Shown in pieces: positions 14,680-50,770 of a stretch of DNA of 64,000 nt. The stretch lies in contig CAMPDV010001060.1 in assembly GCA_946699065.1 (NCBI GenBank), forward strand, positions 1 to 64,000, in the 5' to 3' direction. Every line of letters begins with the position of its first letter. The stretch's first letter is position 1. This DNA comes from Loxodes magnus. Its lineage: Eukaryota; Ciliophora; Karyorelictea; Loxodida; Loxodidae. The position numbers and the translations under genes were made by a program. The notes beneath the pieces are model-generated. The model was not told the DNA's origin. It saw only the letters and a program-made list of their open reading frames with translations, and made no database searches.

Positions 14680-17600
14680 TTTTCAAGCATAAAGGTTTGA
14701 AATTATTCTCACAAATGCAGTTATCAAAGATTCTACTTCTTGACATTATATCACTTTACCTCCTAATTCGTTTGCTATATGTTCAAGTATATCAAATTTT
14801 TCATTTCCAAATCCAATAGCATAAAATTTCAACTTTTCCATTAAACTTATATTCTATTTAATAAAATTAATTTCTTTTCCTGGATACTCAGCTTGACCAT
14901 TTGACATTATACATAGTACATTTAAATCGAAATATTAAAAATGCTAATTTATTAAATCGTTTGCTTTCTAAAATGGTTTATTTAAATTAGTATCTCCTCC
15001 AGTAAATTTTATCAAATCTATTAAATTATTTTCTGGAACTTAGCAATTACAATAAATTTAAGCTTAATCGTTATATCCAATTATAGAAATTCTGGAAGTT
15101 ATTTTGAGACGTTTATCTTCTTAGAATTTATTTAAAAAATTTCTAACTGCTTTCTTTAAATTATACCATGGAGTATTTTAACTATTTTCATCTTTAAAAA
15201 ATTTAAGTCAGTAACCCAACATAGAACTACTAGTATCAAGCATTAGAATATAATGAACTTTAAGAAATCCTTCTAGTCTATTTTGATTAGCTTATAAAAA
15301 TTTAATTTAAATGTTTTTTTTAATTGAATATCATTAACAAACCTTTTAACCAAGATAATTTCAAATTTTAATATTTTTCTCTATTACCAAATTTTATTTT
15401 TCTTTAATTAAAGCATCAAATTTTCAATTTTTCAATTATTATTTATATTAAATCCATTTCATAATATTTCCATCAATACTAATTTCATTATGATCTTCTA
15501 TTTCATTGCAGCAAAGAGTAATAGCATTATTATTTCCAAATATTCTATTCCCTCCAAAAGCTTATATTTAATGACCGATTTGGCAAGCATGTATCCTATC
15601 AGGTAAAGACTAAGTTTAAGGATGATCAACATCACATTATCTTCTACAAAGTTTGCAAAATTCTAAGCAACCATTTAATTAAGTCTTAGAATCTTAAAGA
15701 TGCTCTCCAATGATTTCTTCTACTTTAATACTATTTTTCATTTCAACTTATACTTTTTCAATTAATTTGTTAAGTTCTTTTAAAAAGTAAACCAAATCAG
15801 TTATTCTCTAGTTTTCATCAAGAGAAAGTATAATATTTACAACATTAGCTGAAAGTCTCATATCTTCTCTGATATCTGAAGATAAAGTATAATTTTAATC
15901 TAAAATAAATTAGATATTGTTAATTGTGATAACTTCTTTTTGCAGTCACTTATTTTATATAAATTTTATGAAATATTAATAAGCTGCCTATTAACTATAT
16001 ATTTCCAGCTGAATTTAATCAACTTAGTATTTTTACTTTACTTCACTTTCTTATTACTCTGTTTTGAAAGTTTTACTTGAAGAAGTAATCTTTGCCTCTT
16101 CAACAAGTTCCTAAAATTTTTAAAAATAATCAGTCAGAGATTTAATATTTTGCTAAATCATATCCTCATAATCTTGTTAAGTCTTTTAAATCATGGAATC
16201 TACTAATTCTTTTCATAGTTTATCAAGCATATTGTTAAAAAAATTCTTAGGATCTACATAAAATTCTACTGCATCATCTTCTTTAATTTTAAATAATTCG
16301 GTTTATTCAATTTGCTAATGAGCAAATTAAGTTTCTTAAGATATATTTTCTTAAGCTTTTTATAATAAGAAATCTTCTATTTTTTAAATGATTAGAGATT
16401 TTTAAAATTAGTTTTATTTGATAGATAACATTTTTTAATTAAAATCTTAAATACATTTTTCTTTATTTTCTCTTACTAATTCTTTTTTTAATTTCTGTAC
16501 TATTTAATTTGCAAGAGAAGAATCTATTAGAGTATCGTTACAAGTAAGAAAAGCAATGAACTTTTCTTTTTGCAATTCCTTTTAATCATTTCAAATATAT
16601 AAAGGAGCTAACTCTTTGATAAGTTCTAATTACTCCGCTAAAGCAGTTAAATATGTTTGAGCAACAAGATGTAAGAAACGAGTTCCCTTTTCCGAAATTT
16701 CTAAACAGAATGGCTGTACTTCATCATTAATGTTTTATATCAGTGATTTTATACTAATTGCTATGCTTTAAGTAAGTTTTTAAGTTATCTCAACAAATTA
16801 ATTTTTATATTTATCTTTTTAATTTCCTTTTAATTTAGAAATTAAATCGGATATAGTTAAATTTTCTACGTTTTTACCAGTAATTAAATAAACTTATAAA
16901 ATACTCATTTCTATATCTTTTATTACTTTATCCCAAATTATTTTTTCATGAAAGTACGTAAGAGTACTCTTGCATTCTTATTATTTCTCTTATAATGGTG
17001 ATTTCTAAGGATCTTCAATGAATTTAAAGTATTTTTATTAGTTTTATTCTAATTATGATATGAAATGCTATTCGAATTCATAATTTATCCAATAATTTCT
17101 AAATAAACCTCCTTCATTTTAAACTTTTGTATTTGTAACTTTTTCTATATAATCTTAATATTAATAATTTCACATATATTACTTAAATTATATTTTTCTA
17201 TTTGTATTATTTTAATCTACCTAATTAGTATTCCTTAAATCAAAATAATTATATTCTTTATTAATATTAAAATTAAGGCTAGTAAGATCATTTTAACAAT
17301 TGAAATATTTATTAGTATTTTCATATATGTCATATACAAATAATGATATACTACTTATTATTTATTCATTAGGACTATCTTAAATAGAAGAATATTGTTT
17401 ATAAGTTTTATTTTAACATTAAGATTATTCACTTAGCTATTAATTAATAATTTTTAATAAAACTTATTCTATATTTTCTAATTAAGTAGTTAAATTTTTG
17501 CTATCTAGATAAAAATATTAGCAATCTGTTTGAATATATTAAGGCAGTTTTAATAATGCATCATAACCTTTTTATTTTAATTTCTAATAGGTTCATCATT

Positions 17601-20600
17601 TGTCTAAGAAAGCCTCTTATAAAGTTTTTATCAACTTATGGAACTAAAATCTCGATTGTATAAATTTTATTCATTAAAATTATTACTATATATTCTGTTA
17701 TCTAACAAAATTTTCAGAAAATCCTTAAAGATATTTTTTTTATTGGTTTTATCAAATAAAAACATTTTAAATTATAGGATAAATTTTATTTCCTGTAAAA
17801 TAGAAGAAACTTCCACTCCAATTTGGTTTTTTTTGTTCTTTTTAAAAGAAATCAACTCCTTATTTTTTAAATTCTTAAAGAAATTCTTTTTCTTCCTAAA
17901 TATTTTAAAATTAATTATCAATAATTTCAAGTTAATATTGATTATGTACTAACTAAAAAGTATCTTCATTAATAGTATCAGAGTTTCTTAACATTTAACT
18001 AATTTAACTTTGTATTTAATCCCATGCGTTTATGAATAACTACTTGGCTTCATTTTGTTCATAACTTTTTTTTTCTTGTAAAGCTTTTTTGATAAATGTT
18101 TATATTCTTAGATTACCTAACTATTAAGATTTTTAATCGGCATATTTTGCTATTTTTTCATTGGAATATGAATGTCATTGTTATTTTTAATGTTAAAACT
18201 ATCGATTAAGAATATTTTTTTTACTTTCTCTTAAATTATAATTTATATTTTCGTTGCTGCAAATGTTTTCATACTCCTCCAAAATTTTTTGCTAAAGCTA
18301 GTGAAATTTATCGTCAATTGATTATTTAATTTGATAACTAATATTTTCTATTTTAATTTAAACATTTCCTTAATATACAGCTTGTTATAATTCATTTTAG
18401 ATTATTATTTCCAAATCAAGTTTATGATCTTCAAACTTTTATTCTAAATGTTCTTAAACTAAATTTTTAATAGTTTCATTTAGTTTTAAGCTTTGTTTTT
18501 TTTCATCCAAAATAGTAAATTATGTTATTCCTGTAAATTTTTAAGTAAATGCTCAATGACTAGATGCAAACTCGAACCACTCATTTAAATTGTAATTACT
18601 TTTTTTTTCTGATTCATATTATTTAGCTCTCTATAATATCTTTTTTCTTAAATCCTCCAAATTTTTAGAAAATTCATTTGAAGGTTAATTAATTCTAAAA
18701 CCCTCTTTACCCGATCTATCAAACGCAAAAGGAAGTGTAATTACATTTTCTTAAGTAATTTTAAACAATTTTTAATAATTTTTATTATCTTAAGTACTAT
18801 TCTGGCTTAAGTTTAATTCAATTTCTTAAATAGCTTATTCTATTCCTTTTATACTTTTTTGCATTTCAGTTTCATTTATTTGAGCCTGCATATTCATAAT
18901 AATGTAAATACTTGGCTATTAAATAATGTTTTATTTAAAGTTGAAATTGCATTTATTGCAAGTTTTATTAATTCAGACATCTACTTATTCATTTCACCTT
19001 TGTTGCATATAAGAACTACATGAGATACACACATTATATAAAATACTATTCTTCTATCAAATTACTCACCTCTCCCTTCAACTGATTAAATACCCTCTGT
19101 ATCTAATAATAATATTTTGGACTATTTTAAACACAAACTATTATCAATTTAAACTTAAGAGGCATAAACTCCTTTAGTACATCTTCCAGCTGATGTCAGA
19201 AATTATGTGCCAAATAAATAATTAAGTAGAAGAGATTTTCCTGAAGATTGTGGACCTATAATACTTACTACTAATACTTAGTCCTAGCCTCATTAATGAA
19301 TTTAATCATAAATACCTGTTATGAATTGTAAATTATTTCCATCAATAATTTCGAATGGTTATCCTAATTCTACTTATTGTTATACTAACTCGAAATAAGA
19401 ATTCTTAGATAATTAGCCCTAATTTTAATTTTATACTTAACTATTGGCTTTAGAATATTATCCTAGGTAATATAATTCTCTAAATACATATTCTAAACTA
19501 ATTTATTTCTAATCAATTTTATTATTTATTTTATCTATCTCTATTAAAATCTATCTTTTTTTCTCATTCTTTAAATCTTCTTATTCTAATTATTATTTAT
19601 ATTTAAATATTTCTTAATTTAGAGGTTATATTTACTATTCTAAGAATCCTTTCAATAGTTTAGATAATATTTGAGAAATCCCAATAAAGTTTTAAGACTT
19701 TATAATATCATTAAGAATTTTAATTGTTTCAGTTTATTATTATTATGACAGTTAATTTTTACATTCTTCTATTTTATTAAGAAATTACTCTCTCTATTAT
19801 TAATTAATATCGTTTTTTTGTTAGATTTGAAGCTAACAATTACAAATATCTTCCATAATTCTATTGCATGGTCATAGTTAATTTTCACTTTATTCTTGAA
19901 CGGTTTTTTATATTTGGTTTAAAAATTTTTAAGCCAATTCTAAACATTTACTTATATCTTCGTTAGTTGAAATGTTTTATATAACAAACTGATAGAATAT
20001 TTGCATTGAATCCAATCTCATTTAGAAATTTCCAAAAAACTCCTTATAATTTTACGTTTTTTACATAATAGTTTCTTGAATTTTATCTTTTAAATTAATT
20101 TTACTTTACTCTTCAAGATTTTCATACAAGCAAATTTTATAATAATGCATATTATCTTCTTACTCTTAATAGTAGAAACTATTTTTAATATAGCTTTAGT
20201 TATGTTCTATTATTATAATTATGCTATCTTCTTTTATTTATTTTATGACTTTTATTTGCTCTTTAAGTAATTTTTAATCATTCTGATTGTTAAGGACGTG
20301 AATTATAAAAATATTGAAAATACGATAAAGTTTCTCCAATACTTCAATTTATTAAAATCCATGTGCATCAGCAACAGGAATTCCCATTGGCTAGACAAAG
20401 TTAAAATCAAATTATACTTCAATGCTTCCATAATTGGTTAATCTATTATTATGAATTTCAAAATCTCTATTTAGTAATGAATTAATGAGAGAAGTACATC
20501 CTTTAGGTCCTTTATTAGGATTACTTTGTAGCTTAAAAGTTAAAATTGATTAGTACTATTCAAAAATATAAAAGAGCTCAGGTCAAATTATTTCTTTCCT

Positions 20601-22031
20601 TTAGTCGTCTTAAAGGTCTATTTCGTAAGAAAATAGAGTAACAGGCATAAATTAAGCACAAGAAATGCACAGAAAAATTCTTAACTGTTCATTAGCATTT
20701 TTCATAAGAAATTAAAAAAGTTAAAGTTTTGTTAAAGGAGTTTAGCTTTTTTGCTTAGATAGAGTGGTTATTAACTAAGTAAAATTTTATTTCTTTTTAA
20801 TATAATCATTAAGCAAAACTTAGAGTTAATCGCAGGGAAGTTCATTTTTATTTAAATATTCTTAAGATATTCATTATTCTATCTTTTGAATATCAAATGA
20901 AGTTAAAACACACATAAAATCTGCAATGCTCATATATTTTTCGATTTTAAGGATTTTTTAAATTTCTTTTAAGCTATCTAAATTTTATTATTTACAATTT
21001 TTAGGTTTTTCAACTTATGAAAAAATAGGATGCTTTATAATGAACACTTCAAAAAGTTCATCATATAAATTTTCATCTTCCATTTATATCTATTAGCAAA
21101 TTTCTAAAAATTCTAATTTTATTAATTCCATTTAAGACTCTTCTAATTTGATAACTTATGGCTAAAGAATTTCGAAAATTTATTTAACTTAAGTTTTAAT
21201 TTCAGTAGGAGTTTTTAAAATAAAGATTTATTCTTACCTTAGAAATTATTCAAATTACTAATCTATTTCTATTAGTTTTTTATAAAGTTCTATACCCGCT
21301 TCGTAATATTATTAGTTTTACATTATTGAAATAAGTTTTTGAGATGATTTATCATATTCTCTTTAATCAAATAAAACAAATACTTCTTCAAATGATTTTT
21401 CCTTCGAACCATATTCATCTTTAAGAATCATTACTTTCATTTTATTGCTGAATTCAGGTTTTTCTACAAATATTAACTAAGAAATTTCATTATAAAATAT
21501 TTGATTTTTTTTTTTAATTATAACCAATTATTCTAAGACTTCATCGAAAATTTCTGATTAGAAAAATATGATTAATTCATCGAAATCTTCTTTACAGTTC
21601 GGTGGACATTTGTTTAAAAAGGCTGTCAGCTGTTTTTCTAAAGATACTTTTTTTTCTTCTTAATATAATGGTGGTTTGATATCTTAACAGTTTTAAAATA
21701 ATAGCAAGTATAAATAAACACTAAGAATAAAGCTTTTTTAATTAATATCTTTTAATATTTCGTTACATTTGTTAAAATTACTCTTTTTTAATAAAATATC
21801 TAATAACCTTTTGTTTTTTTTGAATTCTTCATTTTTATCAAAGTAATTATATTAAGTGCAATAGTTTTCAAATAAACTTTTTTCTCTTTTTTGAATTAAA
21901 TAAATTAAAACTTCTTCTTATTTGTATTTGTCTAAAGAGATAAATCATAAATGAAATTAATCCATGTTTTATAAAGTTAGATTCGTCTCATTTACTTATA
22001 ATAATTCTTAATCAATATTTTATTAATTTTT
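14680..22031 (-). repeat. Left arm of large inverted repeat
   Basis: The arm is the reverse complement of 27415-34766. Many 60-base blocks are identical or differ at one base, except for a more diverged block facing roughly 28.9-30.4 kb. Net length difference between the coding arms is one base. The right boundary lies where copy 2 and the intact gene diverge upstream of QNIDQELL, and the left boundary lies 3 bp beyond the stop codon. Confidence 0.92.
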
Positions 22032-22235
22032 AAATTGGGCATCACAAGCTTGAGGTTCATTTTGAATTATTTAAGATTAATTCGCTTCTAATGTTTCGAT
22101 TTTTTAATTTTTTTTTTGATTATTTTATTCATTTTTTTCTTCTTCTTTGTTCATTTAACATGTCTACTTTTTTTCCAACTCTTTTTTTTATATAGATTAA
22201 TTCTCAACAGAAAATGTATTTCTGGATTAATCCAT
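14683..22235 (-). pseudogene. Giant GTPase copy 2 (frameshifted, alternative N-terminus)
   Basis: This copy is near-identical to the intact gene over most of its length and reads in the same frame. It retains the P-loop GPQSSGKS (about 19236-19259), DTEG, the Cys cluster and the full VWA with DTSSS and TGGDTNF. It ends ...NLYA then TGA at 14683. One T is missing in a T run at 18934-18936 relative to both other alignable copies. This shifts the frame after the GTPase core, so the copy is broken unless it is a sequence error. Its start differs: MDQSRNTFSVENQSIQ at 22235 leads directly into the shared SQIIQNE/QNIDQELL region. SAM and B-box are absent. It has TGG at the VWA Trp (15166-15168) where copies 3 and 4 have TGA. 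Confidence 0.85.
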
Positions 22236-26111: not shown

Positions 26112-29100
26112 ATGGAAGTTGAAAATTTACAATCTTTCATTTTCAAGACTTTTAGTAGCAATCAATAAACAGCTTAATAAATTCTTGACTTATTACAGAA
26201 CTTTGGAGTCTTGAATATATAAGAACTAAATGAGGTGACTGATTAAGAAGCAGGGGATCTTGGAATTAAGCCCTTTTAGTGAAGAAAAATTAAAGAATCT
26301 TTGTAGAATGTACTAAAGCTATCTCATTAATAGCAAAATCAATTAAATAGTGAATAAAATTCCAGTTAGAAGCTATGCTAAGTTCATGAAAAGCAACTCT
26401 AATTTTACTGTCAAAATGATAGATAAAAAATTTGTACAGATTGCTCCAGTTCTGTACATAAAGATCACTAGTTTACAACTATCCAAGATGCTATAAATTA
26501 GTTGGTAAGCTAAATATAATAAGAAGAAACTTCTATCCTTTAGGAGTAAATTTAAAGAGATTAGAAGATTAAACAAATGTAGAAAAATCTAAATAAACAG
26601 TCTCACTAAATAAAAGAAATTTGTAATAAATCAATAAACAAATTTCAAAAGCAGTTAAGCAAAATATGCAAAGAATAATTAATAACTTAAATTTAAGAAA
26701 TCGATTAGTTAAAGTAAATAAAAAGCTAAGAATTATCTAAAGTAAAAAATATCAGTTATCAATTTTACTAAAATGAAGAAATGAAAGTTGAAAACATTGA
26801 AACATTATAATCAAAACTATTAGAAGTATAGCAGTGAAAATAATAATTTGAAAAATCTGAATAAGATTTAAATACTGAATAGATGGAATCAGTTAATATC
26901 AGTCAAGTTTTAGAAATGCTATATAAAAAAGTATTTAAAGAACTTTCTTAAACAATAGTTATGAAATAAGAAGCTTTATTTAAAGAATAGAATGAAGAAC
27001 TTTAAATACTTGGTAATGACTGGCTTAAAAATCTATAATGGAGTGATTAAATATGTCAAGCTATTTCTAATTAATTGAATAAAATAAACTAAAAAATATA
27101 ATAGAACAAATAGAATCTAATTATACTATAAGTATAAAAGTAAGAATAAGATGATAGAATAAATATCTAAGAGGTTAGTATTATAGAAGATAAATCTTAG
27201 ATTTTACATATAATAAATTAAAATAAACCTCAAGTTAATATATAAATTGATATGTAATAAAATAATCTAGAAATAGATCTTATTGAAGAAAGTTAAAATG
27301 ATGAATAAAGTAAATAAAAAAATATTTAAAATACCAATTAAACTATAGAAGTTTAAGAAATAGTTTAATCTCAAATTTTTTAAAATGAAACTCAAACAAG
27401 TTAAAGAAAAAATGAAAATTAATAAAATATTGATTAAGAATTATTATAAGTAAATGAGACGAATCTAACTTTATAAAACATGGATTAATTTCATTTATGA
27501 TTTATCTCTTTAGACAAATACAAATAAGAAGAAGTTTTAATTTATTTAATTCAAAAAAGAGAAAAAAGTTTATTTGAAAACTATTGCACTTAATATAATT
27601 ACTTTGATAAAAATGAAGAATTCAAAAAAAACAAAAGGTTATTAGATATTTTATTAAAAAAGAGTAATTTTAACAAATGTAACGAAATATTAAAAGATAT
27701 TAATTAAAAAAGCTTTATTCTTAGTGTTTATTTATACTTGCTATTATTTTAAAACTGTTAAGATATCAAACCACCATTATATTAAGAAGAAAAAAAAGTA
27801 TCTTTAGAAAAACAGCTGGAGGCCTTTTTAAACAAATGTCCACCGAACTGTAAAGAAGATTTCGATGAATTAATCATATTTTTCTAATCAGAAATTTTCG
27901 ATCAAGTCTTAGAATAATTGGTTATAATTAAAAAAAAAAATCAAATATTTTATAATGAAATTTCTTAGTTAATATTTGTAGAAAAACCTGAATTCAGCAA
28001 TAAAATGAAAGTAATGATTCTTAAAGATGAATATGGTTCGAAGGAAAAATCATTTGAAGAAGTATTTGTTTTATTTGATTAAAGAGAATATGATAAATCA
28101 TCTCAAAAACTTATTTCAATAATGTAAAACTAATAATATTACGAAGCGGGTATAGAACTTTATAAAAAACTAATAGAAATAGATTAGTAATTTGAATAAT
28201 TTCTAAGGTAAGAATAAATCTTTATTTTAAAAACTCCTACTGAAATTAAAACTTAAGTTAAATAAATTTTCGAAATTCTTTAGCCATAAGTTATCAAATT
28301 AGAAGAGTCTTAAATGGAATTAATAAAATTAGAATTTTTAGAAATTTGCTAATAGATATAAATGGAAGATGAAAATTTATATGATGAACTTTTTGAAGTG
28401 TTCATTATAAAGCATCCTATTTTTTCATAAGTTGAAAAACCTAAAAATTGTAAATAATAAAATTTAGATAGCTTAAAAGAAATTTAAAAAATCCTTAAAA
28501 TCGAAAAATATATGAGCATTGCAGATTTTATGTGTGTTTTAACTTCATTTGATATTCAAAAGATAGAATAACGAATATCTTAAGAATATTTAAATAAAAA
28601 TGAACTTCCCTGCGATTAACTCTAAGTTTTGCTTAATGATTATATTAAAAAGAAATAAAATTTTACTAAGTTAATAACCACTCTATCTAAGCAAAAAAGC
28701 TAAACTCCTTTAACAAAACTTTAACTTTTTTAATTTCTTATGAAAAATGCTAATGAACAGTTAAGAATTTTTCTGTGCATTTCTTGTGCTTAATTTATGC
28801 CTGTTACTCTACTTTCTTACGAAATAGACCTTTAAGACGACTAAAGGAAAGAAATAATTTGATCTGAGCTCTTTTATATTTTTGAATAGTACTAATCCGT
28901 TTTAACTTTTAAGTTACAAAGTAATCCTAATAAAGGACCTAAAGGATGTACTTCTCTCATTAATTCATTACTAAACAGAGATTTTGAAATTCATAATAAT
29001 AGATTAACCAATTATGGAAGCATTGAAGTATAATTTGATTTTAACTTTGTCTAGCCAATGGGAATTCCTGTTGCTGATGCTCATGGATTTTAATAAATTG

Positions 29101-32100
29101 AAGTATTGGAGAAACTTTATCGTCTTTTCAACATTTTTATAATTCACATCCTTAACAATCAAAATGATTAAAAATTACTTAAAGAGCAAATAAAAGTCAT
29201 AAAATAAATAAAAGAAGATAGCATAATTATAATAATAGAACATAACTAAAGCTATATTAAAAATAGTTTCTACTATTAAGAGTAAGAAGATAATATGCAT
29301 TATTATAAAATTTGCTTGTATGAAAATCTTGAAGAGTAAAGTAAAATTAATTTAAAAGATAAAATTCAAGAAACTATTATGTAAAAAACGTAAAATTATA
29401 AGGAGTTTTTTGGAAATTTCTAAATGAGATTGGATTCAATGAAAATGTTTCTTTAAATTTTTGCTTAAAAAGTATTAGAAGATTTGAATATCAGTAAATA
29501 GCTAGAATTAGTTTAGCAATTTTTAAACGAAATTTAGAAATTCAATCAAGAATAAAGTGAAAATATCCTGTTACCATGCAATAGAATTATGGAAGATATT
29601 TGTAGATTCCAGCTTCAAATCTATCAAGAAAACGATATTAATTAATAATAGAGAGAGTAATTTCTTTATAAAATGGAAAATTGTAAAAGTTAATTGTCAT
29701 AATAATAATAAACTGAAATAGTTAAAATTCTTATAGAAATTATAGATTCTTAAAACTTCATTGGAATTTCCCAGATTATTTCTAAGCTATTAAAAGGATT
29801 CCAAGATTAGGAGCTTTTACCTTTATATTTAAAAGCAAGTAACTATAATTCAAATTTACAATAAGAAGAATTATCCAATGAGAAAAAATGCTAAATTTAT
29901 ATTGAAATAGAGAAATTAACTTAAAAAATAAATTAGAAATAAATAAGTTAAGAATATGTTTATAGAGAATTATACTATCTAGGATAATACTCTTAAGTAA
30001 AAATAGAACAAAAAAATAGAAATATAGGTTAAGAATCTTAAAATTCTTATTTTAAGTTAGTAAAACAATAAATTAAATATGGATAACCATTTGAAATTAT
30101 AGATGGAAATAATTTACAGTTCATTTCAGGTATTTATGATAATTTATACTAAAATAATGAAGATTAAGTATTGGTAGTAAGTGTAATAGGTCCTTAATCC
30201 TCAGGAAAATCTCTTCTACTTAATTATCTATTTGGCACATAATTTCTGTCAGCAGCAGGAAGGTGCACTAAAGGAGTTTATGCCTCTTTAATTAAAATTT
30301 ATAAAAGTTAAGAATCAAAATATTAGAAAATATTATTATTAGATACAGAGGGTATTTAAGCAGTTGAAGGAAGAGATGAATAGTTTGATAGAAGAATAGT
30401 ATTTTATATAATGTGTGTCTCTCATGTAGTTCTTATATGCAACAAGGGTGAAGTTAATAAATAAATGTCTGAATTAATAAAACTTGCAATAAATGCAATT
30501 TCAACTTTAAAATAAAACATTATTTAATAGCCAAGTATTTACATTATTATGAATATGCAGGCTCAAATAAATGAAACTGAAATGCAAAAAAGTATAAAAG
30601 GAATAGAATAAGCTATTTAAGAAATTGAATTAAACTTAAGCCAGAATAGTACTTAAGATAATAAAAATTATTAAAAATTGTTTAAAATTACTTAAGAAAA
30701 TGTAATTACACTTCCTTTTGCGTTTGATAGATCGGGTAAAGAGGGTTTTAGAATTAATTAACCTTCAAATGAATTTTCTAAAAATTTGGAGGATTTAAGA
30801 AAAAAGATATTATAGAGAGCTAAATAATATGAATCAGAAAAAAAAAGTAATTACAATTTAAATGAGTGGTTCGAGTTTGCATCTAGTCATTGAGCATTTA
30901 CTTAAACATTTACAGGAATAACATAATTTACTAGTTTGGATGAAAAAAAAAAAAGCTTAAAACTAAATGAAACTATTAAAAATTTAGTTTAAGAACATTT
31001 AGAATAAAAGTTTGAAGATCATAAACTTGATTTGGAAATAATAATCTAAAATGAATTATAAAAAGCTGTATATTAAGGAAATGTTTAAATTAAAATAGAA
31101 AATATTAGTTATCAAATTAAATAATCAATTGACGATAAATTTCACTTGCTTTAGCAAAAAATTTTGGAGGAGTATGAAAACATTTGCAGCAACGAAAATA
31201 TAAATTATAATTTAAGAGAAAGTAAAAAAAATATTCTTAATCGATAGTTTTAACATTAAAAATAACAATGACATTCATATTCCTATGAAAAAATAGCAAA
31301 ATATGCCGATTAAAAATCTTAATAGTTAGGTAATCTAAGAATATAAACATTTATCTAAAAAGCTTTACAAGAAAAAAAAAGTTATGAACAAAATGAAGCC
31401 AAGTAGTTATTCATAAACGCATGGGATTAAATACAAAGTTAAATTAGTTAAATGTTAAGAAACTCTGATATTATTAATGAAGATACTTTTTAGTTAGTAC
31501 ATAATCAATATTAACTTGAAATTATTGATAATTAATTTTAAAATATTTAGGAAGAAAAAGAATTTCTTTAAGAATTTAAAAAATAAGGAGTTGATTTCTT
31601 TTAAAAAGAACTAAAAAAACCAAATTGGAGTGGAAGTTTCTTCTATTTTACAGGAAATAAAATTTATCCTATAATTTAAAATGTTTTTATTTGATAAAAC
31701 CAATAAAAAAAATATCTTTAAGGATTTTCTGAAAATTTTGTTAGATAACAGAATATATAGTAATAATTTTAATGAATAAGATTTATACAATCGAGATTTT
31801 AGTTCCATAAGTTGATAAAAACTTTATAAGAGGCTTTCTTAAGCAAATGATGAACCTTATAGTCATAAAAATAACCAGATTATGATGCATTATACAAACT
31901 GCTATAATATATTCAAACAGATTGTTAATTTTTTTATCTAGATAGCACAAATTTAACTACTTAATTAGAAAATATAGAATAAGTTTTATTGAAAATTATT
32001 AATTAATAGCTAAGTGAATAATCTTAATGTTAAAATAAAACTTATAAACAATATTCTTCTATTTAAGATAGTCCTAATGAATAAATAATAAGTAGTATAT

Positions 32101-34763
32101 CATTATTTGTATATGACATATATGAAAATACTAATAAATATTTCAATTGTTAAAATGATCTTACTAGCCTTTATTTTAATATTAACAAAGAATATAATTA
32201 TTTTGATTTAAGGAATACTAATTAGGTAGATTAAAATAATACAAATAGAAAAATATAATTTAAGTAAAATAGGTGAAATTATTATTATTAAGATTATATA
32301 GAAAATTTTACAAATACAAAAGTTTAAAATGAAGGAGGTTTATTTAGAAATTATTGAATAAATTATGAATTCGAATAGCATTTCATATCATAATTAGAAT
32401 AAAACTAATAAAAATACTTTAAATTCATTGAAGATCCTTAGAAATCACCATTATAAGAGAAATAATAAGAATGCAAGAGTACTCTTACGTACTTTTATGA
32501 AAAAATAATTTGGGATAAAGTAATAAAAGATATAGAAATGAGTATTTTATAAGTTTATTTAATTACTGGTAAAAACGTAGAAAATTTAACTATATCCGAT
32601 TTAATTTCTAAATTAAAAGGAAATGAAAAAGATAAATATAAAAATTAATTTGTTCAGATAACTTAAAAACTTACTTAAAGCATAGCAATTAGTATAAAAT
32701 CACTGATATAAAACATTAATGATGAAGTAAAGCCATTCTGTTTAGAAATTTCGGAAAAGGGAACTCGTTTCTTACATCTTGTTGCTCAAACATATTTAAC
32801 TGCTTTAGCGGAGTAATTAGAACTTATCAAAGAGTTAGCTCCTTTATATATTTGAAATGATTAAAAGGAATTGCAAAAAGAAAAGTTCATTGCTTTTCTT
32901 ACTTGTAACGATACTCTAATAGATTCTTCTCTTGCAAATTAAATAGTACAGAAATTAAAAAAAGAATTAGTAAGAGAAAATAAAGAAAAATGTATTTAAG
33001 ATTTTAATTAAAAAATGTTATCTATCAAATAAAACTAATTTTAAAAATCTCTAGTCATTTAAAAAATAGAAGATTTCTTATTATAAAAAGCTTAAGAAAA
33101 TATATCTTAAGAAACTTAATTTGCTCAATAGCAAATTGAATAAACCGAATTATTTAAAATTACAGAAGATGATGCAGTAGAATTTTATGTAGATCCTAAG
33201 AATTTTTTTAACAATATGCTTGATAAACTATGAAAAGAATTAGTAGATTCCATGATTTAAAAGACTTAACAAGATTATGAGGATATGATTTAGCAAAATA
33301 TTAAATCTCTGACTGATTATTTTTAAAAATTTTAGGAACTTGTTGAAGAGGCAAAGATTACTGCTTCATGTGAAACTTTCAAAACAGAGTAATAAGAAAG
33401 TGAAGTAAAGTAAAAATACTAAGTTGATCAAATTCAGCTGGAAATATATAGTTAATAGGCAGCTTATTAATATTTCATAAAATTTATATAAAATAAGTGA
33501 CTGCAAAAAGAAGTTATCACAATTAACAATATCTAATTTATTTTAGATTAAAATTATACTTTATCTTCAGATATTAGAGAAGATATGAGACTTTCAGCTA
33601 GTGTTGTAAATATTATACTTTCTCTTGATGAAAACTAGAGAATAACTGATTTGGTTTACTTTTTAAAAGAACTTAACAAATTAATTGAAAAAGTATAAGT
33701 TGAAATGAAAAATAGTATTAAAGTAGAAGAAATCATTGGAGAGCATCTTTAAGATTCTAAGACTTAATTAAATGGTTGCTTAGAATTTTGCAAACTTTGT
33801 AGAAGATAATGTGATGTTGATCATCCTTAAACTTAGTCTTTACCTGATAGGATACATGCTTGCCAAATCGGTCATTAAATATAAGCTTTTGGAGGGAATA
33901 GAATATTTGGAAATAATAATGCTATTACTCTTTGCTGCAATGAAATAGAAGATCATAATGAAATTAGTATTGATGGAAATATTATGAAATGGATTTAATA
34001 TAAATAATAATTGAAAAATTGAAAATTTGATGCTTTAATTAAAGAAAAATAAAATTTGGTAATAGAGAAAAATATTAAAATTTGAAATTATCTTGGTTAA
34101 AAGGTTTGTTAATGATATTCAATTAAAAAAAACATTTAAATGAAATTTTTATAAGCTAATCAAAATAGACTAGAAGGATTTCTTAAAGTTCATTATATTC
34201 TAATGCTTGATACTAGTAGTTCTATGTTGGGTTACTGACTTAAAATTTTTAAAAATGAAAATAGTTAAAGTACTCTATGAAATGATTTAAAGAAAGCAGT
34301 TAGAAATTTTTTAAATAAATTCTAAGAAGATAAACGTCTCAAAATAACTTCCAGAATTTCTATAATTGGATATAGTGATAATGCGTAAATTTATTGTAAT
34401 TGTGAAGTTCCAGAAAATAATTTAATAGATTTGATAAAATTTACCGGAGGAGATACTAATTTTAATGAACCATTTTAGAAAGCAAACGATTTAATAAATT
34501 AGCATTTTTAAGATTTCGATTTAAATGTACTTTGCATCATGACAGATGGCTATGCTGATTATCCATAAAAAGAAATTCAGATTATAAAATAGAATAAAAG
34601 TTTAATAGAGAAGTTGAAGTTTTTCGCTATTGGATATGGAAACAATAAATTTGATATACTTGAACGTATAGCAAACGAATTAGGAGGTAAAGTGATAAAA
34701 TGTCAAGAAGTAGAATCTTTGATAACTGCATTCGTGCAAATAATCCCAAACCTTTATGCTTGA
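26112..34763 (+). CDS. Giant SAM/B-box/VLIG-type GTPase/VWA protein, 2,883 aa (copy 3, intact)
   Basis: A single frame of 2,884 codons ends at TGA 34761-34763. Domains: SAM-like (about 8-60); B-box zinc finger (C89, H92, C100 to H119); Gln-rich coiled coil (about 125-450); a helical region; a large G domain with P-loop GPQSSGKS (1360-1367), the switch CTKGVYAS and DTEG (1411-1414), with no canonical base-specificity motif that I can place; long helical regions; a Cys/His cluster from C2556 with GHQIQAFGG; and a VWA domain with MIDAS residues D2700-S-S, T2782 and D2812. About 20 in-frame TGA codons fall at Trp positions, against about 7 TGG. The start is supported by copy 5, whose ATG lies at the same distance before SFIF-TFSSN. 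VLIG and guanylate-binding-type GTPases are large self-assembling GTPases, B-box/coiled coil is a TRIM-like module and VWA binds protein ligands through metal. A scaffold or defence-like role is inference. No membrane segment or signal peptide is evident. Confidence 0.88.
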
Positions 34764-39118: not shown

Positions 39119-39751
39119 ATTTCAATATTTATATATATTAAATCTTACAATTTCTAATTTTATCTTTTTATTTTTTCTTTTATTTACCAAATGGACATTG
39201 ACTTAGGAATAGATTCAATAATAATTGGAATATGATAAATTAGAATTTAATTTAAATAAATTTTCTGACATTTTTTAATTGCCAGAATGATTTCTTCCAA
39301 TTATAGACATTAATTTTGAAATGTCCATCATTTAATCTCTCTTCCCGAATGTTTCTATTCAGCATCTTTTTATTCAGCTTTTTCTAGCTCAAAACAGTAT
39401 AGTTTTCTATCAAATAAAATTTTGTGAAATAATTTTATTCGCAAATATGAAAGTTCTATTTTATTAGTTTGAAATTGGTTTATGCAAATTTTATTGTACA
39501 GTATTAGAAAATTTAAATAATAATTTTCAATCTTTTGCTTTAGTCTCTTTCTTATATCTAAATAGAAATTACAAATAAAAATATATTCAAAATTATGAAT
39601 TATTCAAAAATACAAAAAGATAGTAACGATCCTTGAGAATTATGTAAAAAGCATAAGGTTTCAAATTTTTATTTAAATTAGCAAATAATTTTTTTCTTAG
39701 TTTTTTATTGAAATCTGACATTTAGAAAGTAAATGAAATAGTGCTGGATTC

Positions 39752-41767: not shown

Positions 41768-44700
41768 TCAGGCATAAAGGTTCGGAATTATTTTCACAAA
41801 TGCAGAAATCAAAGTATCTACTTCTTCACATCTTTTCATTTTACCTCCTAATTCTGTAGCCATTCGCTAAAGCTCACTAAATTTTCCTTTTCCATATCCT
41901 ATTGCATAAAAAGTCAACTTCTCTAGTATTTTTTCATTCTATTTAATAAATTCTAATTTCTTTTTTGGGATATAAAGCCTATCCATCTGACATCATACAA
42001 AGTACATTTAAATCAAATATTTGTTAAATGTTAATTGATAATTTCGATTGCTTTCTAAAATGGTAAGTTAAAGTTAGTATTTCCATTGATAAACTTTATC
42101 TTTTCAATAATTTGCTATCTGGTGGCTTACAATTACAAAAGATCTCTACCTTATCGCTATACCCAATAATAGAAATTTTTGAATTTTTTTTAAGTCGATT
42201 ATCTCTTTATAATTGATTTATAAGTTTTCTACAGCTTTTTTCAAATTATATCATGGAGTATTTTCACTATTTTCATGTTGTCCATAGTCTCGTCAATGCA
42301 AAACCCAACATAGAACTACTTGAATCAAGCATTAGAATATAGTGAACTCTATAAAATCCTTCTAATTGATCTTTATTTGCTTTAAAAAGTTTATTTAAAT
42401 TTTCTTTTTGCTTTAATATCATTAGCAAACCTTTTAACCAAGATAATTTCAAATTATAATATTTTTCTCTATTATTTTATTTGCTTTTTCTTTATCTTTA
42501 GTTTCAAAATTTCAATTTTTAAATTATTATTTAAAGTTGATTCATTTCATAATTTGTCCATTGTAATTTATTTCATTTGAGTCTGCTAGTTCATTGCAGC
42601 AAAGAGTTATCGCATTATTATTTCCAAGCATCCTATTCCCTCCAAATGCTTATATTTAATGACCATTTTAACAAGCATGTATCCTATTATGCAAAGGTTC
42701 ATTTTAAAGATGATCTACATCACATTACCTTCTACATAGCTAGCAATATTCAATGCAACCAGTTAATTAATTTTTTAAATCTTATAAATGTTCTCCTATA
42801 ATTTCTTCAATTTAAATACTATTTTTCATTTCATCCAAAGATTTTTTGCTCACTAATTTTTTTATTAAATTCGGCTAAGAAGTAAGTTAAATCAGTAATT
42901 CTTTAGTTTCCGTCAAAAGAAAGAATAATATTAATTATGTTCGCATTAAGGTTATCTTTTATTATTTAAGAAGATAATGGTAAAGTAATGGTCTCATTTA
43001 CTATAAATTAGATGTTGTCGATTGTGATAATTTCTTTTTTTTATCACTTATTTTATATAAATTTTAAAAAATATTAATAAGCTGCTTATTAAATGTATAT
43101 TTCCAACTATAATAGATCAATTTAGTACATTTTACATTATTTCAAATTCTTAAACTCTATTTTGAAAATTTCTCTTGAAGAAGTAACATTTTGCTGCTCA
43201 ATAAACTGGTAAAAAATTTAGGAAAATAATTCATCAGAGATTAAACATTTTTCTCAATAATTTACATATAACTGTACAAATTTTAAAATAATGGAAAGTT
43301 TACTCTTTGTTTTCAGTATTTATCAAACATCTTGTTAAATAGATTTTTAGGATCTACAAAAAATTATATTGCTTCTTCATCTGTTATCTCAAATTATTCT
43401 TACATCTAAAATTACTATAATTAATTTTTTATTTTTAAGATGGATTTTCTTTAGCTTGATTTAATAAAAACTCTTCTATTTTTTAAATGATTAGAGATTT
43501 TTAAAATTAATTTTATTTGATATATAGCATTTTTAAATTAAAATCTTAAATAATTTATGTTTTAGTTTCTTTAACTAAGTCTTCTTTCAACTTTAATACT
43601 ATTTGATTAGCAAGAGAAGAATCTATTAGTGTATCATTACAAGTTAAAAAAGCAATGAATTTTTCTTTTTAAATTTCCTTTGACGAATTTCAAATATAAT
43701 AAAGGAGTTTGTTCTTTTATAAGTTCTAATTATTCCGCTAAAGTTGTTAAATATGTTTGAGCCACAAGATGTAAAAAACGAGTTCCTTTTTCTGAGATTT
43801 CGATACATAATGGCTTCATTTCATCATTAAGGTTTAATATCAAGTATCTAATACTTTTTACTATATTTTAAATTAATATCTAAGTAATCTAAACAAACTA
43901 ATTCTTATAGTTTTCTTTTTCATTTCCTTATAATTTGGAAATCAAATCATTTATAGTCAAATTTTATCTGTTTTCTCCAATAGTTTAATAATTTTCTAAA
44001 ACTATTATTTCTATATCTTTTATTATCTTATTCCAACTTAATTATTGATGAAAATATTTGAGAGTACTCTTACATTCTTACGCTTCTTCTTGTAAAGGAT
44101 ATTTTTGAGGTTCTTAAATAAATTAAAAATATCTTTGCTAATTCCATTCTTATTCTGATGTGAAATTTTTATCAAACTCATAATTTGTCCAGCTATCTCG
44201 AAAAACACCTTCTTCATTTTCAACTTCCTAATTTGTAACTTTTTCTATATATTAAGAAGGTTCATAATTATATGGTTGTGATTGAAATTCTCTTTTGTTA
44301 TGTAATCAGTTTTAATCTACATAATAATATTTCTTTAAATCAAAATAATTATAAATTTTCTTTTTATTAAAATTAATAGTAGTTAAATTTGATTAGCATT
44401 TAAAATATTTTTAAATATTTTAATAGATCTCATCTACAAATAGTTATATATATATTTTTATTTCTTTTTTAGAATTTTATGTAATTTGTTAATATTTAAA
44501 TTCACTTTTGTTTCAATACTGTTTTTCTTAATTTTCTAATTATTCTTTAATCTACTACAATTAAGTTTCTATATCCTATAATTTATCGACCAATTTGGAA
44601 CAATCTAGATAAAAAATTATGCAATCGTTTTGGATATCTTTTATTAACTGTAAAATAATTTCATGTTTTATTTATTATCTTTTTTTTTATAATTTTTTAC

Positions 44701-47700
44701 TTATGAAAACTCATTCTATAGTTTCTTGCAACTTTTAAAATTAAAATCTCTGCTTAACAAAGCAGTCTCATATAAATTTCATTTGAGTCTTTTTTTCATT
44801 AACAATATTTTGGGGAAATTTATTAAAATACTTCTTTTATATCTTTTATCAATAAAATACATTTTCAATTATAGGATAAATTTTATTTCCAGTAAAAAAG
44901 AATACACTTCCACTTCAATTTTATTAATAAAGTTAATCTAAAAAGAATTAATCCCCTTATTTTTTAAATTCTTAAAGAAATCTCTTTTCTTCCTAAATAT
45001 TTTAATATTTATTTTCAATTATTTCATTTTAATATAGAGTGTGCATTAAATTAAAAGTTTCTTCCATAATAGTTTCTGGTTTTTTAAACATTTAAATAAT
45101 TTCATTTTCTATTTAAGTGCAGACATCTTTGAACTTTTATTCTGCTTCTTCTTTCTCATAACAAGTATTTTGTAATAAAGCATTTTTAATAAATGTTGCA
45201 ATTCTTATATTACCTAACAATTTAGATTTTTCATAGGCATATTCTGCTATTTTTTCATTGGTGAATGAATATCATTACTGATTTCAATACTGTATTTAAC
45301 GAATAAGCATATCTTTTTTGTTTTATTTTAATGATAAGTAAATTTTTTCACAGCTACAATATTTATCGTATTCATCCAAAAGATTTTATTACACTTGTCT
45401 AAATATATCATCAATGCATAATTTAATTTTCAAAACTAATATTTTCTATTTTAATTTAAGTAGATTCTTATTATAAAGCCTTTTACAATTCATTTTAAAT
45501 TATGTTGTGTATTTCAGATTTATGATCTTCAAACTTTAATTCTAAATTTATTTAAATTAAAGATTTCATTTTTTCGCTAAGTTTTTAATTTTATTTTTTC
45601 TCTTCCAAGCTAGTAAATTCAGTTATTCCTGTAAATGTTTAAGTAAATGCTCAATGGCTAGAAGCAAAGTTGAATCATTATTATAAAGTATAGTTACTTC
45701 TTTATATTTCATCTTTTTAAAATATTTTCTATAAAATCTTTGCTTTTAAAGATTCTAATTTATTAGAAAATTCATTTAATGGCTAATTAATTTGTAAATT
45801 TCCATCACCTGATTTAGCGAATGCAAAAGGAAGTATAAATACATTTTCTTCAGTTATTTTAAGTACTTTTTAAGATTTTTATTTTTCTTAAGTTGTATTC
45901 TAATTTTAGATTTACTCTATTTCTAAAATGGCTTATTGTATTCCTTTAATGCTTTCTTACATTGCCGTTTCATTTATTTAAGTTTGCATATTCATAATAA
46001 TATAAGTACTTGGCTAATAAATAATGTTTTATTTTAAAGTTGAAATAACATTTATTGCCAGTTTGATAATTTCAGACATTTATTTATTAACTTCACCCTT
46101 GTTGCATATAATAACTACATGAGATACACACATTATATAAAATACTATTCTTCTATCAAACTATTCATTTCTTCCTTCAACTGCTTAAATACCCTCTGTA
46201 TCTAATAATAATATTTTCTAATAATTTGATTCTTAACTTTTATAAATTTTAATTAAAGAGGCATAAACTCCTTTGGTGCACCTTCCTGCTGCTGACATAA
46301 ATTATGTACCAAAAAGATAATTAAGCAGAAGAGATTTTCCTGAGGATTATGGGCCTATAACACTTACTACCAATACTTAATCTTTATCGTTTTAGTATAA
46401 ATTATCATAAATACCTGAAATGAACTGTAAATTATTTCCATCAATAATTTCAAATGGTTATCCATATTTAATTTATTGTTTAAACTAACTTAAAATAAGA
46501 ATTTTAAGATTCTTAACCTATATTTCTATTTTTTTGTTCTATTTTTACTTAAGAGAATTATCCTAGATAGTATAATTCTCTAAATACAAATTCTTAACTT
46601 ATTTATTTCTAATTTATTTTTTAAGTTAATTTCTCTATTTCATTATAAATTTAGCATTTTTTTTCATTGGATAATTCTTCTTATTATAAATTTGAATTAC
46701 AGTTACTTGCTTTTAAATATAAAGGTAAAAGTTCCTAATCTAAAAAGCCTTTTATTAGCTTAGAAATTATTTGAGAAATTCCTATAAAATTTTAAGAATC
46801 TATAATTTCCGTAAGAATTTTAACTATTTCAGTTTATTATTGTTCCTATAATAAATTGTTACGATTTAATATATCACTGTAAAGATAATTTCTAGTTTAA
46901 TAATCAATATCACTTTCTTTATAAAGTTAAATCTGAAATTTACAGATATCCTCCATAATTTCGTTGCATGGTAATAAAGAATTTTCACTTTATTCTTAAA
47001 TGTATTTCTAAATTTCGTTCAAAAACTATTAAACTAATTCTAGTTGATTATAGACATTTAAATCTTTTATTATGTTTTAATCGAGAATTTGAGCAAATAA
47101 TTTCATTGAGTCCAATCTCTTTTAATAATTTCCAAAAAATTAATAATAATTTTATGTTTTTTAATTATATATATCTAGAATTTCATCTTTTAAATTTATT
47201 TTGCTTTATTCTTCAAGATTTTCATATAAACAAATTTTATAATAATGTATATTATCTTTTTGTTCTTCATAATCAAAACTAGATTAGCTGTAATTTTAGT
47301 TATGCTCTATTATTATAATTACACTTTTTTCTTTTATTTATTTTATGACTTTTATTTGCTCTTGAAGTAATTTTTAATCATTTTGATTATTAAGGATGTG
47401 AATTATAAAAATATTGAAAAGACGATAAAACTTCTCCAATATTTCAACTTATTAAAATCCATGAGAATCAGCTACTGGAATTCCCATTGGCTAAACAAAA
47501 TTAAAATCAAATTAAACTTCAATACTTCCTCAGTTGGTTAATCTATTATTATGAATTTCAAAATCTCTATTTAATAGTAAATTAATGAGAGAAGTACATC
47601 CTTTAGGTCCTTTATTAGGATTACTTTGTAACTTAAAAGTTAAAACGGATTAGTACTATTCAAAAATATAAAAGAGCTCGGGTCAAATTATTTCTTTCCT

Positions 47701-48450
47701 TTGTTCGTCTTGAAAATCTATTTCATAAGATAGCAAAGTAATAGGCATAAATTAAGCACAATAAATACACAAAAAAATTCTTAATTGTTAATTTGCAGTT
47801 TGCATAAGAAATTGAAATAGTTACAGTCTAGTTAAAGGAGTTTAATTTCTTTATTTAGAAAATATAGTTATTAGTCTAGTAAAACTTTATCTCTTTTTAA
47901 TATAATCGTAAAGTAAAATTTAAAGTCATCCGGAAGTAAATTCGTTTTCATTTAAATATTCTTAAGATATTCATTGTTCTTTATTTTGAATATTAAATGA
48001 AGTATGAGCACACATAAAATCTTCAATAGACAATTTTTTTTCTATCTTTAGGATTCTTTTAATTTCTTTTAAGCTATCTAAATTTTACGATTTGCGGTTT
48101 TTCAATTAATGAAAAAATAGTATGATTTTTAATAAATGTTTCAAAAAGTTCTTCATATAAATTTTCATCTTCTATTTAAATAACTTAACAAATTTCTTTA
48201 AATTACTATATTTTTTACTCCAATTAAAATTTTTATAATTTGCTAGTTTGAATTGAAAGAATTTCGAAAATTTATTTAACTTAAGTTTTAATTTCAGTAG
48301 GAGTTTTTAAAATAAAGATTTATTCTTACCTTAGAAATTATTAAAATTGCTAATCTATTTCTATTAGTTTTTTATAAAGTTCTATACCCGCTTCGTAATA
48401 TTATTAGTTTTACATTATTGAAATAAGTTTTTGAGATGATTTATCATATT
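41768..48450 (-). pseudogene. Giant GTPase copy 4 (5'-truncated, frameshifted)
   Basis: It aligns with the intact gene from codon about 659 to the stop (TGA at 41768-41770, ...NLYA). It keeps the P-loop segment, FGTQFMSAAGRCTKG and LLLDTEGI, the EWF/SSHW region, the Cys cluster and parts of VWA. The first part of the gene is missing: homology stops abruptly at 48450. Frame changes occur, for example inside the VWA domain near 42290 and again near 42110, so it is not functional. Several Trp codons are TGA where the intact gene has TGG (42542-42544, MKW). Its central region is the closest relative of the intact gene's central block. Confidence 0.85.
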
Positions 48451-50770
48451 CAAAAAATTATATACACATAAAAATAAATAAAAATTTGTTAAAAAAATGT
48501 TAATTGTAAACTAAATTACTGAAAATAGGTAACATAATAATTAGAAGCTGTTAAAAATTAAAATTTAAAAAAGGTCATTAATTATGCAAATAAGTAAAAG
48601 AGGAATACTTTAAATGCATTAAATAAAATTTTTGGACTAAAGATAATTAATTTTTAGATAAATTTCATAGAGTTAAAATTAAATAAATTACTTTAAATTT
48701 TAATAAAATTTGCTAAGAAAGAATTTCTTAATCGTAAGGACTAAATTATTGTTTTCTTTTCTAAGTAAGAATTATGAGTATTAAAATAATTGAGTATTTT
48801 CAATTTAAAAATCTAATCATATATCTGAATTTACTAATTACTTAATGAAATTAATTAGAAAAGTTTGGACGCTTAATTACATAAAAAAATTATAATAAAA
48901 TCAATGTAAAATAAAAACTTTTTTTATATAAATACAAATTAATTAAGCAAAATTGATATAGTAAAATATGTAATTTAGAGTAAAATGTGTAAAACGTAAT
49001 TTATTTATTTTTAAATCAATCTAAAAATTATAGTTCTTAAAAATAAGATAGAATCATAAAAATAAATTTATTAAATTATATTAAAAGTATTCTTTTTTAT
49101 TTGAATAATTTATTTTCTAAAATGAAATTATAGTGATTGATAAGTAAGTTTTGGAAATAAGGCATTTTAGAACTTTATTTTGGTTTTTTATTCAAATAAT
49201 TTTTATAATAAAATTTCATTTTTTCTTTTTGAAATAAATGATATGTTTTTTAGTTAAACGTTTGCGATGAGATTAGCTGAGTTTAATATTTTAAAGTAAA
49301 CTTTAGAAGTAAATAAATTTGTTTAAACCTTTTTTACATATTTAGTCAATTAACCATAATTAGAATATTTTAAATTTAGTAAAGCTGATTAATATTTGAA
49401 TGTTTATTAATATAAAAAAAGAAAATTTTTGATATTTTGTTTATTAAATTTTAAATTCCAATAATTAAGCGAATAATTCTTTTTTTTATAATTGCAAAAA
49501 TCAGGAGTGAATCAGATATAATTTGGGGCATCTGCGAACCAAGGATATTTTAAAATCTCTTTAATGGAAGAAAAAAACGTTAGAAATATTCTTTAATGAC
49601 ATTTATTATCATTAACTATAAAAAATAATTTTTTTAAAGGTGTAATAACTTAAATAAAAATCTTTGCTATTTTACAGCAGAACTAAAAGTAAAAAGTATT
49701 AAAAAATAATTTGAATTATTATAAAGGTAATCATTAAATATCTTTGTTAGTTAAATTAAATTTTTTTATTTAATATAAAAAATGAAGCATTAAATTATAA
49801 GAGCAAATTTAAAAAGATTAAATTTAAAAAGAAGTTATTAAAAATTAAAAATAACAAAATAATTTTTCATCGAATTTAAAATAAAAAACAAAATGCTAAA
49901 CATTTTTGAGTCAAAAATTTAAGAAAATGATGAAAAATTACTATAAAGACAAACTAAAATAAAGTAAAATATAAGTAAAATTTAATGATTGTAACGATTT
50001 AAAATCAAATAGTTATTAATTTGGAAGTGATCCTTTATATTAAGTTAGGAGTTGATAGAAAATCGTTATATGATACAAATTTCAAAACATAAAAAACATA
50101 TTTAAAGAATTTCATATATGATTGCTACAAAATAATAAAATATAATAAGGAATATAAATACGAATTATAAAAATTTGATGATTAGCAGATTAAGCTAATA
50201 AAATGAAAGGACAAACAAACTAAATTTTTTTAATAATATTTTGGACAAAAATTAAGCAAGTGAATAGAATGAGCATAATTTATATCCCCCAAAACTAGAA
50301 TACAAGAATAAATTATGAAAATATTTTAAAAAAAAGTTTATATTTTATGTAATAAATTTATTTTACCATGATTAAAAAATTTAGCCAAAAGTATAATATA
50401 TAGTTAAAATAAATTGAAATTAAATAAAAAAATTTTATCTTAAAAGTATTTAAAAAGTCAAGTATATTTAATTGAAAATTTTTTAATAAAAAATGGATAT
50501 ATATTAAAATAGGAATGAAAAATTACTTTGAAATAGTTTTAGCTAACTCAAGTTGGTCAATAATCTTTGAAAATATATAGAAACTATTATAAAATATAAT
50601 GCAATAGAAAAAATATAATTTTTTATAATTTTAGTTAATAAATTTTTAAATAATAAGACAAATAATGTGAGAAAGTCTTGAGCTCTGCAACTTTTCTAGA
50701 AAAGGCGAGTTTGATATAGCTACCTAAGAAGTTAAAAATGAAAAAAAAATATAGTAATATGCTTTGGACT
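48451..50770. other. AT-rich intergenic stretch
   Basis: About 2.3 kb of A/T-dominated sequence beginning exactly at the truncation point of copy 4. No gene or RNA is recognised. Confidence 0.6.

Follow-up and report, generated by a model that had tools for sequence, protein, structure and literature searches.

A giant GTPase gene and its frame

The first 64,000 nucleotides of contig CAMPDV010001060.1 (C1060; hereafter the window, C1060:1-64000) of the ciliate Loxodes magnus carry, at 26112..34763 on the forward strand, a gene for a 2,883-residue protein built around a GTPase domain that by profile groups with the URGCP/VLIG branch. The gene belongs to a cluster of paralogues that have exchanged whole modules and whose GTPase domain is under purifying selection; these features, together with the domains and their nucleotide- and metal-site residues, are observed here. 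We propose, by analogy and with a probability of roughly 0.45, that the product is a very large GTPase inside the cell, of URGCP/VLIG(GVIN)-GBP type, whose nucleotide-driven assembly would act as a switch in cell-autonomous defence.

The GTPase domain occupies residues 1178-1500 (29643..30611, + strand, as are all features of this gene) and matches URGCP_GTPase (PF25683) with an expectation value (E) of 2.7e-27 in the whole-protein Pfam scan (96 bits against a cut-off of 55), and with 99 bits and E 3.1e-28 when the G region is scanned in isolation. The isolated region also matches RHD3_GTPase (E 2.4e-13) and the GBP N-terminal domain PF02263 (E 1.3e-7, 31.5 bits against a cut-off of 21.1), and a profile of the family's G domains finds SEY1 as its closest solved relative (E 1e-11), followed by GBPs (4.5e-5 and weaker). 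The P-loop GPQSSGKS at residues 1360-1367 (30189..30212) is conserved as GP[QY]SSGKS in all 11 aligned members, as is the G3 motif DTEG at residues 1411-1414 (30342..30353). Only one stretch matched a GTPase profile, with no second domain in the fragments on either side, although profiles could miss a degenerate domain.

The solved-structure matches would also allow the main rival to a role in defence, namely that these are housekeeping membrane-remodelling GTPases of the Sey1/atlastin or trafficking type, whose expansion accompanied the large cell size and the abundance of vacuoles, and that the mosaics described below are ordinary gene conversion in a tandem array. Both the RHD3_GTPase and SEY1 matches outscore GBP, the GTPase domain is under purifying selection, and tandem arrays are readily converted. 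We nevertheless regard this explanation as doubtful, given that the URGCP family fits the domain far better than either, that the C-terminal halves of paralogues can be merely 36% identical behind GTPase domains that are 93-98% identical, and that a B-box, a Cys/His cluster and a VWA domain, all present here, are not known from the Sey1/atlastin family.

The whole coding region comprises 2,883 residues and a TGA stop under translation table 27 (the karyorelict code), with no intron needed. That code is in use in L. magnus, whose macronuclear assembly is 706 Mbp according to the accessible part of PMC11441545; the version analysed here holds 705,730,643 bases in 7,843 contigs. The guanine-plus-cytosine (GC) content of the three codon positions is 0.301, 0.195 and 0.164, whereas the flanks are fairly flat at 0.14-0.22, without such a gradient. 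The gene contains 20 sense TGA codons, at nine of which every aligned paralogue has tryptophan and at four of which none does. Sense TGA, TAA and TAG occur for the last time at codons 2723, 2819 and 2827 of 2,884, respectively, leaving the final 50 codons free of all three; L. magnus is reported to keep UGA and UAA out of the last 20 or so codons (PMC11441545, accessible part). By codon-position GC, conservation of tryptophan at TGA and avoidance near the stop, the frame looks coding. No tRNA was found in the window, nor any Rfam match at gathering score.

The preliminary description of this stretch had read a single uninterrupted frame of 2,883 residues, and its exact coordinates and length were reproduced with table 27. 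It had also raised the concern of an assembly join, and this we checked on separate contigs, where C996:34252-42681 matches residues 1-2882 and C834:42667-34931 matches residues 1-2647, each as a single unbroken match. Because the same architecture recurs in one frame on another contig, it is not a join. The VLIG/GBP-type G domain, the B-box, the Cys/His cluster, the VWA domain and the multicopy cluster named in that description were likewise recovered, with the G domain matching both URGCP_GTPase and GBP, the B-box above its cut-off, and ten URGCP_GTPase matches on C1060 alone. The B-box and VWA domain are real, and the Cys/His cluster and VWA domain are shared traits of the family and not oddities of this gene.

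The N-terminal head

The B-box zinc finger spans residues 86-124 (26367..26483; PF00643, E 3.7e-10, 40.2 bits against a cut-off of 24.1 in the whole-protein scan), with C89, H92, C100, D103, C108, C111, H116 and H119 assigned across residues 89-119 by what we take to be the B-box ligand pattern. It is followed by long helices, a probable coiled coil, at residues 125-330 (26484..27101), which begin at residue 124 in a low-confidence model (described below), and a match to TRIM28 covers residues 85-269 (E 0.0026). No RING match was found in residues 1-85 or elsewhere in Pfam scans of the whole protein and its fragments, and residues 1-88 are free of cysteine. The earlier label "TRIM-like" thus holds for the succession of B-box and long helices and fails beyond it: there is no RING match, a SAM-like domain stands in its place, a giant GTPase follows, and the B-box module is optional, occurring in only five of 24 copies. 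On the first and last of these grounds we reject identity with TRIM proteins. A Spore_Cse60 match in the whole-protein scan (1.9e-4) was taken as spurious.

B-boxes are common in the L. magnus genome (1,261 candidates, of which the 150 scored all exceed the cut-off), and the gain of one is therefore no rare event there. Among the matches listed, many crowd together on each of contigs C248 and C105, a separate B-box expansion.

Ahead of the B-box, residues 1-66 (26112..26309) likely form a SAM-like domain. The N-terminus of the protein itself has no Pfam match, but ten paralogous N-termini gave matches to SAM_TNK (five of ten, best 0.0024), SAM_1 (one, 0.0022), SAM_EPH (two, 0.038) and SAM_2 (one, 0.022). 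The non-SAM family Hikeshi-like_C scores alike, in two of the ten (0.002). A profile of the ten N-termini searched against PDB found Caskin-1 as its sole SAM match (E 0.73), beside unrelated chains of similar E. A structure model of residues 1-330, made from alignments of two to three rows (window sequences only), has a mean predicted local distance difference test (pLDDT) score of 49 and places helices at residues 6-13, 18-30, 36-41, 44-48 and 54-80. None of its 28 Foldseek matches reaches E 0.001 and the top one is unrelated; 12 of the 28 titles name SAM. The SAM-like assignment made in the preliminary description accordingly keeps some footing in the paralogues, and it lacks a match in the protein itself.

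The C-terminal half

Behind the GTPase domain lies the most variable stretch of the protein by paralogue identity and by the ratio of non-synonymous to synonymous substitution rates (dN/dS), residues 1751-2100 (31362..32411). A Cys/His cluster at residues 2555-2609 (33774..33938), probably zinc-binding, consists of C2556, C2560, C2563, C2567, H2571, H2582, C2584, H2588 and C2609, and each of these nine positions is conserved in 90% or more of the 15 tails aligned. The protein ends in a VWA domain, residues 2697-2883 (34200..34760), whose D2700, S2702, S2704, T2782 and D2812 we assign on the pattern that we take to define a metal-ion-dependent adhesion site (MIDAS). Scanned alone, the tail matches PF00092 (E 4.7e-9, 37.1 bits against a cut-off of 23.8) and PF13519 (1.9e-8); in the whole-protein scan no VWA score appears at E<=1. 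The D-x-S-x-S motif is kept in 14 of the 15 tails, the remaining one being out of frame there, and among the 14 readable tails the threonine is kept in 12 and the second aspartate in 13, the exception to the latter being the inverted copy in the window. The protein thus resembles other MIDAS-type VWA proteins in this site and differs in its fusion to a giant GTPase.

A model of residues 2431-2883, again from alignments of two to three rows, has a mean pLDDT of 36. With both end models poor, the VWA and Cys/His part is described from sequence alone. No relatives were confirmed in viral or prokaryotic contigs from C-terminal or G-domain alignments, by searches with two short peptide patterns each that reach fairly close relatives only.

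Comparison with other large GTPases

Vertebrate VLIGs presumably carry a C-terminal Cys/His motif, and some large fungal proteins presumably join a similar motif to a VWA domain. If both hold, the order GTPase-Cys/His-VWA may be older than ciliates. The Loxodes protein shares with the GVIN/VLIG/URGCP proteins of animals a URGCP_GTPase match above cut-off, a very large single chain of more than about 1,500 residues and clustered, multicopy genes; it differs in adding a SAM-like domain, a B-box and a VWA domain and in its ciliate host. Compared with GVIN1, it has 2,883 residues against 1,808 and one GTPase match against two modelled domains (PMC11974893, accessible part). Judged by its defining GTPase domain, then, the protein is of a known kind, and it is set apart from human GVIN1 by having only one GTPase domain that could be detected and by the added SAM-like, B-box and VWA parts.

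The likeness to GBPs lies in the GBP N-terminal domain match, which is weaker than that to URGCP_GTPase, and in the DTEG motif; coat formation would be shared by analogy only. GBPs are proteins of about 65 kDa with a GTPase and a helical domain only, whereas the Loxodes protein is far longer and has further domains. Ordinary GBP-type domains belong to separate L. magnus genes (31 matches, the strongest on other contigs). Such matches on C73, C20, C42, C16, C46, C3 and others, with a best E of 1.0e-68, lie away from the giant-GTPase clusters.

A literature search on VLIG/URGCP-type GTPases, VWA/B-box combinations and ciliate immunity, with most subscription journals outside its scope, found no report of such genes in ciliates, and the terms "GTPase" and "B-box" were not found in the accessible part of the L. 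magnus genome paper (PMC11441545).

A clustered family of many copies

A search of the L. magnus genome with the protein gave 17 matches, and a search with URGCP_GTPase gave 40, of which 28 exceed the cut-off and 26 of these lie on six contigs: C1060 (ten), C996 (six), C834, C2577 and C120 (three each) and C155 (one). These 26 matches are not 26 independent loci, some representing the same locus or alleles. C1060:121497-136029 equals C834:1-14533 at 99.9% identity, as overlapping contig ends, and C996 is about 97-98% identical to C1060 and C834 along stretches of up to 17.6 and 29 kb, respectively, in rearranged order and with inverted segments. C996 could represent the second haplotype or else a segmental duplication, and the three contigs form an unmerged, structurally complex region. 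Heterozygosity in L. magnus is 0.6%, and the Falcon assembly was not unzipped (PMC11441545, accessible part).

A tblastn count over all of C1060 and parts of other contigs, C2577 excepted, yielded the 24 copies referred to here. Nine of them start at residue 446 or before it and run without a break to residue 2882, and the other 15 are broken, truncated or ended by the boundary of the stretch; in the C155 copy the match ends at residue 2683, with no VWA domain beyond. In sister genes without a B-box, the SAM-like start leads through a Gln-rich linker to the common part, all in frame, and the linker of C1060:94063-101925 is nearly identical to that of C1060:122662-114791. In the member at C120:108656-118655 the linker consists of a long series of Thr-Glu-Gln-type repeats that are almost identical to each other, and its neighbours have other Gln-rich sequence.

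The window holds four further copies. One, an inverted paralogue at 14683..22145 (- strand), covers residues 397-2883 and is 97-98% identical to the gene over most of its length, with lower stretches of 80% (19305-19957) and 89% (18929-19283). It has no residues 1-396, and its frame is broken near residue 1467 by the loss of 1 nt, which could reflect decay or a sequencing error. A decayed paralogue in many frames lies at 3263..9733 (+ strand), a broken one with four matched pieces of residues 619-2883 at 41771..48550 (- strand), and another broken one at 58314..63913 (- strand), which has the SAM-like/B-box module (residues 5-281) and not residues of about 282-772.

Around these copies, no Pfam match at E<=0.01 was found in six frames of 9700-14680, in three minus frames of 48400-58400 or of 35000-41760, or in one plus frame of 9000-11000. 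At positions 1-2205 a 391-bp unit is repeated in tandem (5.1 copies, 99% matches), with a very purine-rich + strand (GC skew 0.865), and a direct repeat (11628-11743 and 54111-54226, 72% identical) lies outside the GTPase copies, in surroundings whose scanned frames had no Pfam match.

Exchange of modules between paralogues

Module exchange is seen in six close paralogues, C1060:94063-101925, C1060:122662-114791, C834:9778-17655, C834:42667-34931, C996:34252-42684 and C996:72044-79921, whose pairwise identity is 92-98% in the core and 92-99% in the G domain. An exchangeable pre-G module, at about residues 1085-1205 (29364..29726) by paralogue identity and breakpoints, is either 93-98% or 29-32% identical between them, and the C-terminal half is either 94-96% or 36% identical; taking the modules together, identity is about 92-100% or else about 30-36%. 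All four combinations of head and C-terminal half (types alpha and beta) occur: Gln-rich with alpha in C1060:94063, B-box with alpha in C834:42667, Gln-rich with beta in C1060:122662 and B-box with beta in C996:34252. With the pre-G types included, the six genes represent five distinct combinations.

In maximum chi-square tests on third codon positions, all six pairs tested exceeded every one of 500 permutations, with breakpoints above the 99th percentile near residues 495-529, 739, 958, 1078-1160, 1211-1337, 1475, 1708, 1836 and 2749. Breakpoints lie on both sides of the GTPase domain. Synonymous divergence (dS) between the gene and its inverted partner runs from 0-0.07 (residues 451-1050) through 0.28-0.56 (1051-1500) and 0-0.04 (1501-2700) to 0.20 (2701-2850), so that this pair, too, is a mosaic. 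The pair C120a/C120b is 36-38% identical in residues 1901-2100 between flanks of 64% and 85%, and its dS rises from 0.04 (1351-1500) to 0.79 (1951-2100). An assembly chimera is unlikely to have caused these patterns because the same module types recur on separate contigs, although C1060, C834 and C996 could represent a single region, as alleles or as overlaps. Members of the family are mosaics in which whole modules have been swapped between paralogues.

Modular mosaics, with divergent sequence types kept in one cluster, would also suit a self-recognition family (mating type or allorecognition) whose variable modules mark identity, as would the possibly large haplotype differences implied by C996, at about 97-98% to C1060 and C834 over 17-29 kb against the genome-wide 0.6%. 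We think this very improbable, however, since nothing ties the locus to mating and no signal peptide or membrane segment was noticed by eye, no predictor being used. Proteins with GTPase and B-box domains are, moreover, typically cytosolic.

Selection across the protein

In three diverged pairs, dN/dS is 0.26, 0.20 and 0.06 for the GTPase domain, 0.45, 0.49 and 0.52 for residues 1751-2100, and 0.15, 0.23 and 0.32 for residues 2101-2640; the VWA domain has 0.59 in the one diverged pair with data. We also pooled ratios of non-synonymous to synonymous differences per site (pN/pS) over five close gene pairs, one of them in two pieces, with the post-G pool including an out-of-frame stretch of C1060:91843-89528. 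The pooled values are 0.41 for the G domain, 0.39 for the core, 0.65 for the N-terminal linker, 0.47 for the pre-G module, 0.77 for residues 1751-2100, 0.97 for residues 2101-2640, 1.02 for the Cys/His cluster (16 changes only) and 0.59 for the VWA domain. The excess over the core and G domain is significant (p < 0.001) for the linker and for residues 1751-2100 and 2101-2640, and not for the Cys/His cluster (p 0.12).

These ratios indicate that the GTPase domain is under purifying selection and that some other parts change faster, with positive selection unproven. The "rapidly changing" cluster of the preliminary description is therefore borne out more as to module exchange between paralogues than as to positive selection site by site, given a constrained GTPase domain and no dN/dS above 1 in any segment of the diverged pairs.

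The pooled ratios near 1 in residues 2101-2640 and in the Cys/His cluster, together with the 15 of 24 copies that are incomplete, bring up the reading of the array as a neutral one, decaying through birth and death and of little present function. This is unlikely, as the gene is open over 2,883 codons, its metal-site and nucleotide-site residues are kept, and diverged pairs are constrained both in the GTPase domain (0.06-0.26) and in residues 2101-2640 (0.15-0.32).

A proposed switch in cell-autonomous defence

Human GVIN1 coats a cytosolic bacterium, with antimicrobial effect, and blocks its actin tail, with GBP1 acting in parallel (PMC11974893, accessible part). From this coat and from the URGCP/VLIG grouping by profile, we propose a GTP-driven coat or scaffold for the Loxodes protein; we infer by analogy its oligomerisation, coat formation, target and any defence role. 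The SAM-like, B-box and coiled-coil head, or in sister genes the SAM-like start with its Gln-rich linker, would oligomerise the protein. GTP-bound GTPase domains would then dimerise and drive coat assembly on the surface of something foreign, for instance a symbiont, a vacuole or a bacterium that has been ingested or lives inside the cell, or on a damaged surface. Binding specificity would come from the helical region, which changes fast, and from the VWA tail with its dependence on metal, and module exchange among clustered paralogues would renew it with the GTPase engine retained.

Several results weigh against this proposal. The best solved-structure match is SEY1, an endoplasmic reticulum (ER)-fusion-type GTPase and not a defence GTPase, and the protein has one URGCP-type match against the two large GTPase domains modelled in human GVIN1 in the accessible part of its report. 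Part of the cluster is decaying, because so few copies (nine of 24) are unbroken. No segment of the diverged pairs has dN/dS > 1, and the higher pooled ratios stem from closely related pairs, which are possibly alleles and include broken copies. Finally, the pN/pS excess over the core and G domain is not significant for either the pre-G module (p 0.19) or the VWA domain (p 0.15).

A further-reaching form of the defence proposal, which we put forward only tentatively and hold to be doubtful as it stands, is a combinatorial repertoire in which a constant VLIG-type engine would be joined to exchangeable heads (B-box or Gln-rich), pre-G modules and recognition halves with a metal-dependent VWA sensor at their end, the parts being reshuffled as structurally unstable clusters recombine. 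This shuffling is the most interesting part of the family. If the repertoire is real, it would parallel, in a protist and with a coat-forming GTPase driving it, the immune-receptor clusters that diversify in plants and animals. The mosaic structure predicts that wild isolates differ far more in their combinations of modules than in the GTPase domain.

Little is known about how single-celled eukaryotes protect themselves from intracellular microbes. At the centre of the Loxodes proteins stands a GTP-driven switch of a type that animals turn on invading microbes, and whole modules have been swapped among them; together these features make the family a plausible candidate for a repertoire of defence against microbes. 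A URGCP/VLIG-type family in a ciliate, with a metal-dependent, sensor-like tail and swapped modules, would suggest that animals are not alone in using giant GTPases for defence, and would offer a tractable set of genes in which to test this.

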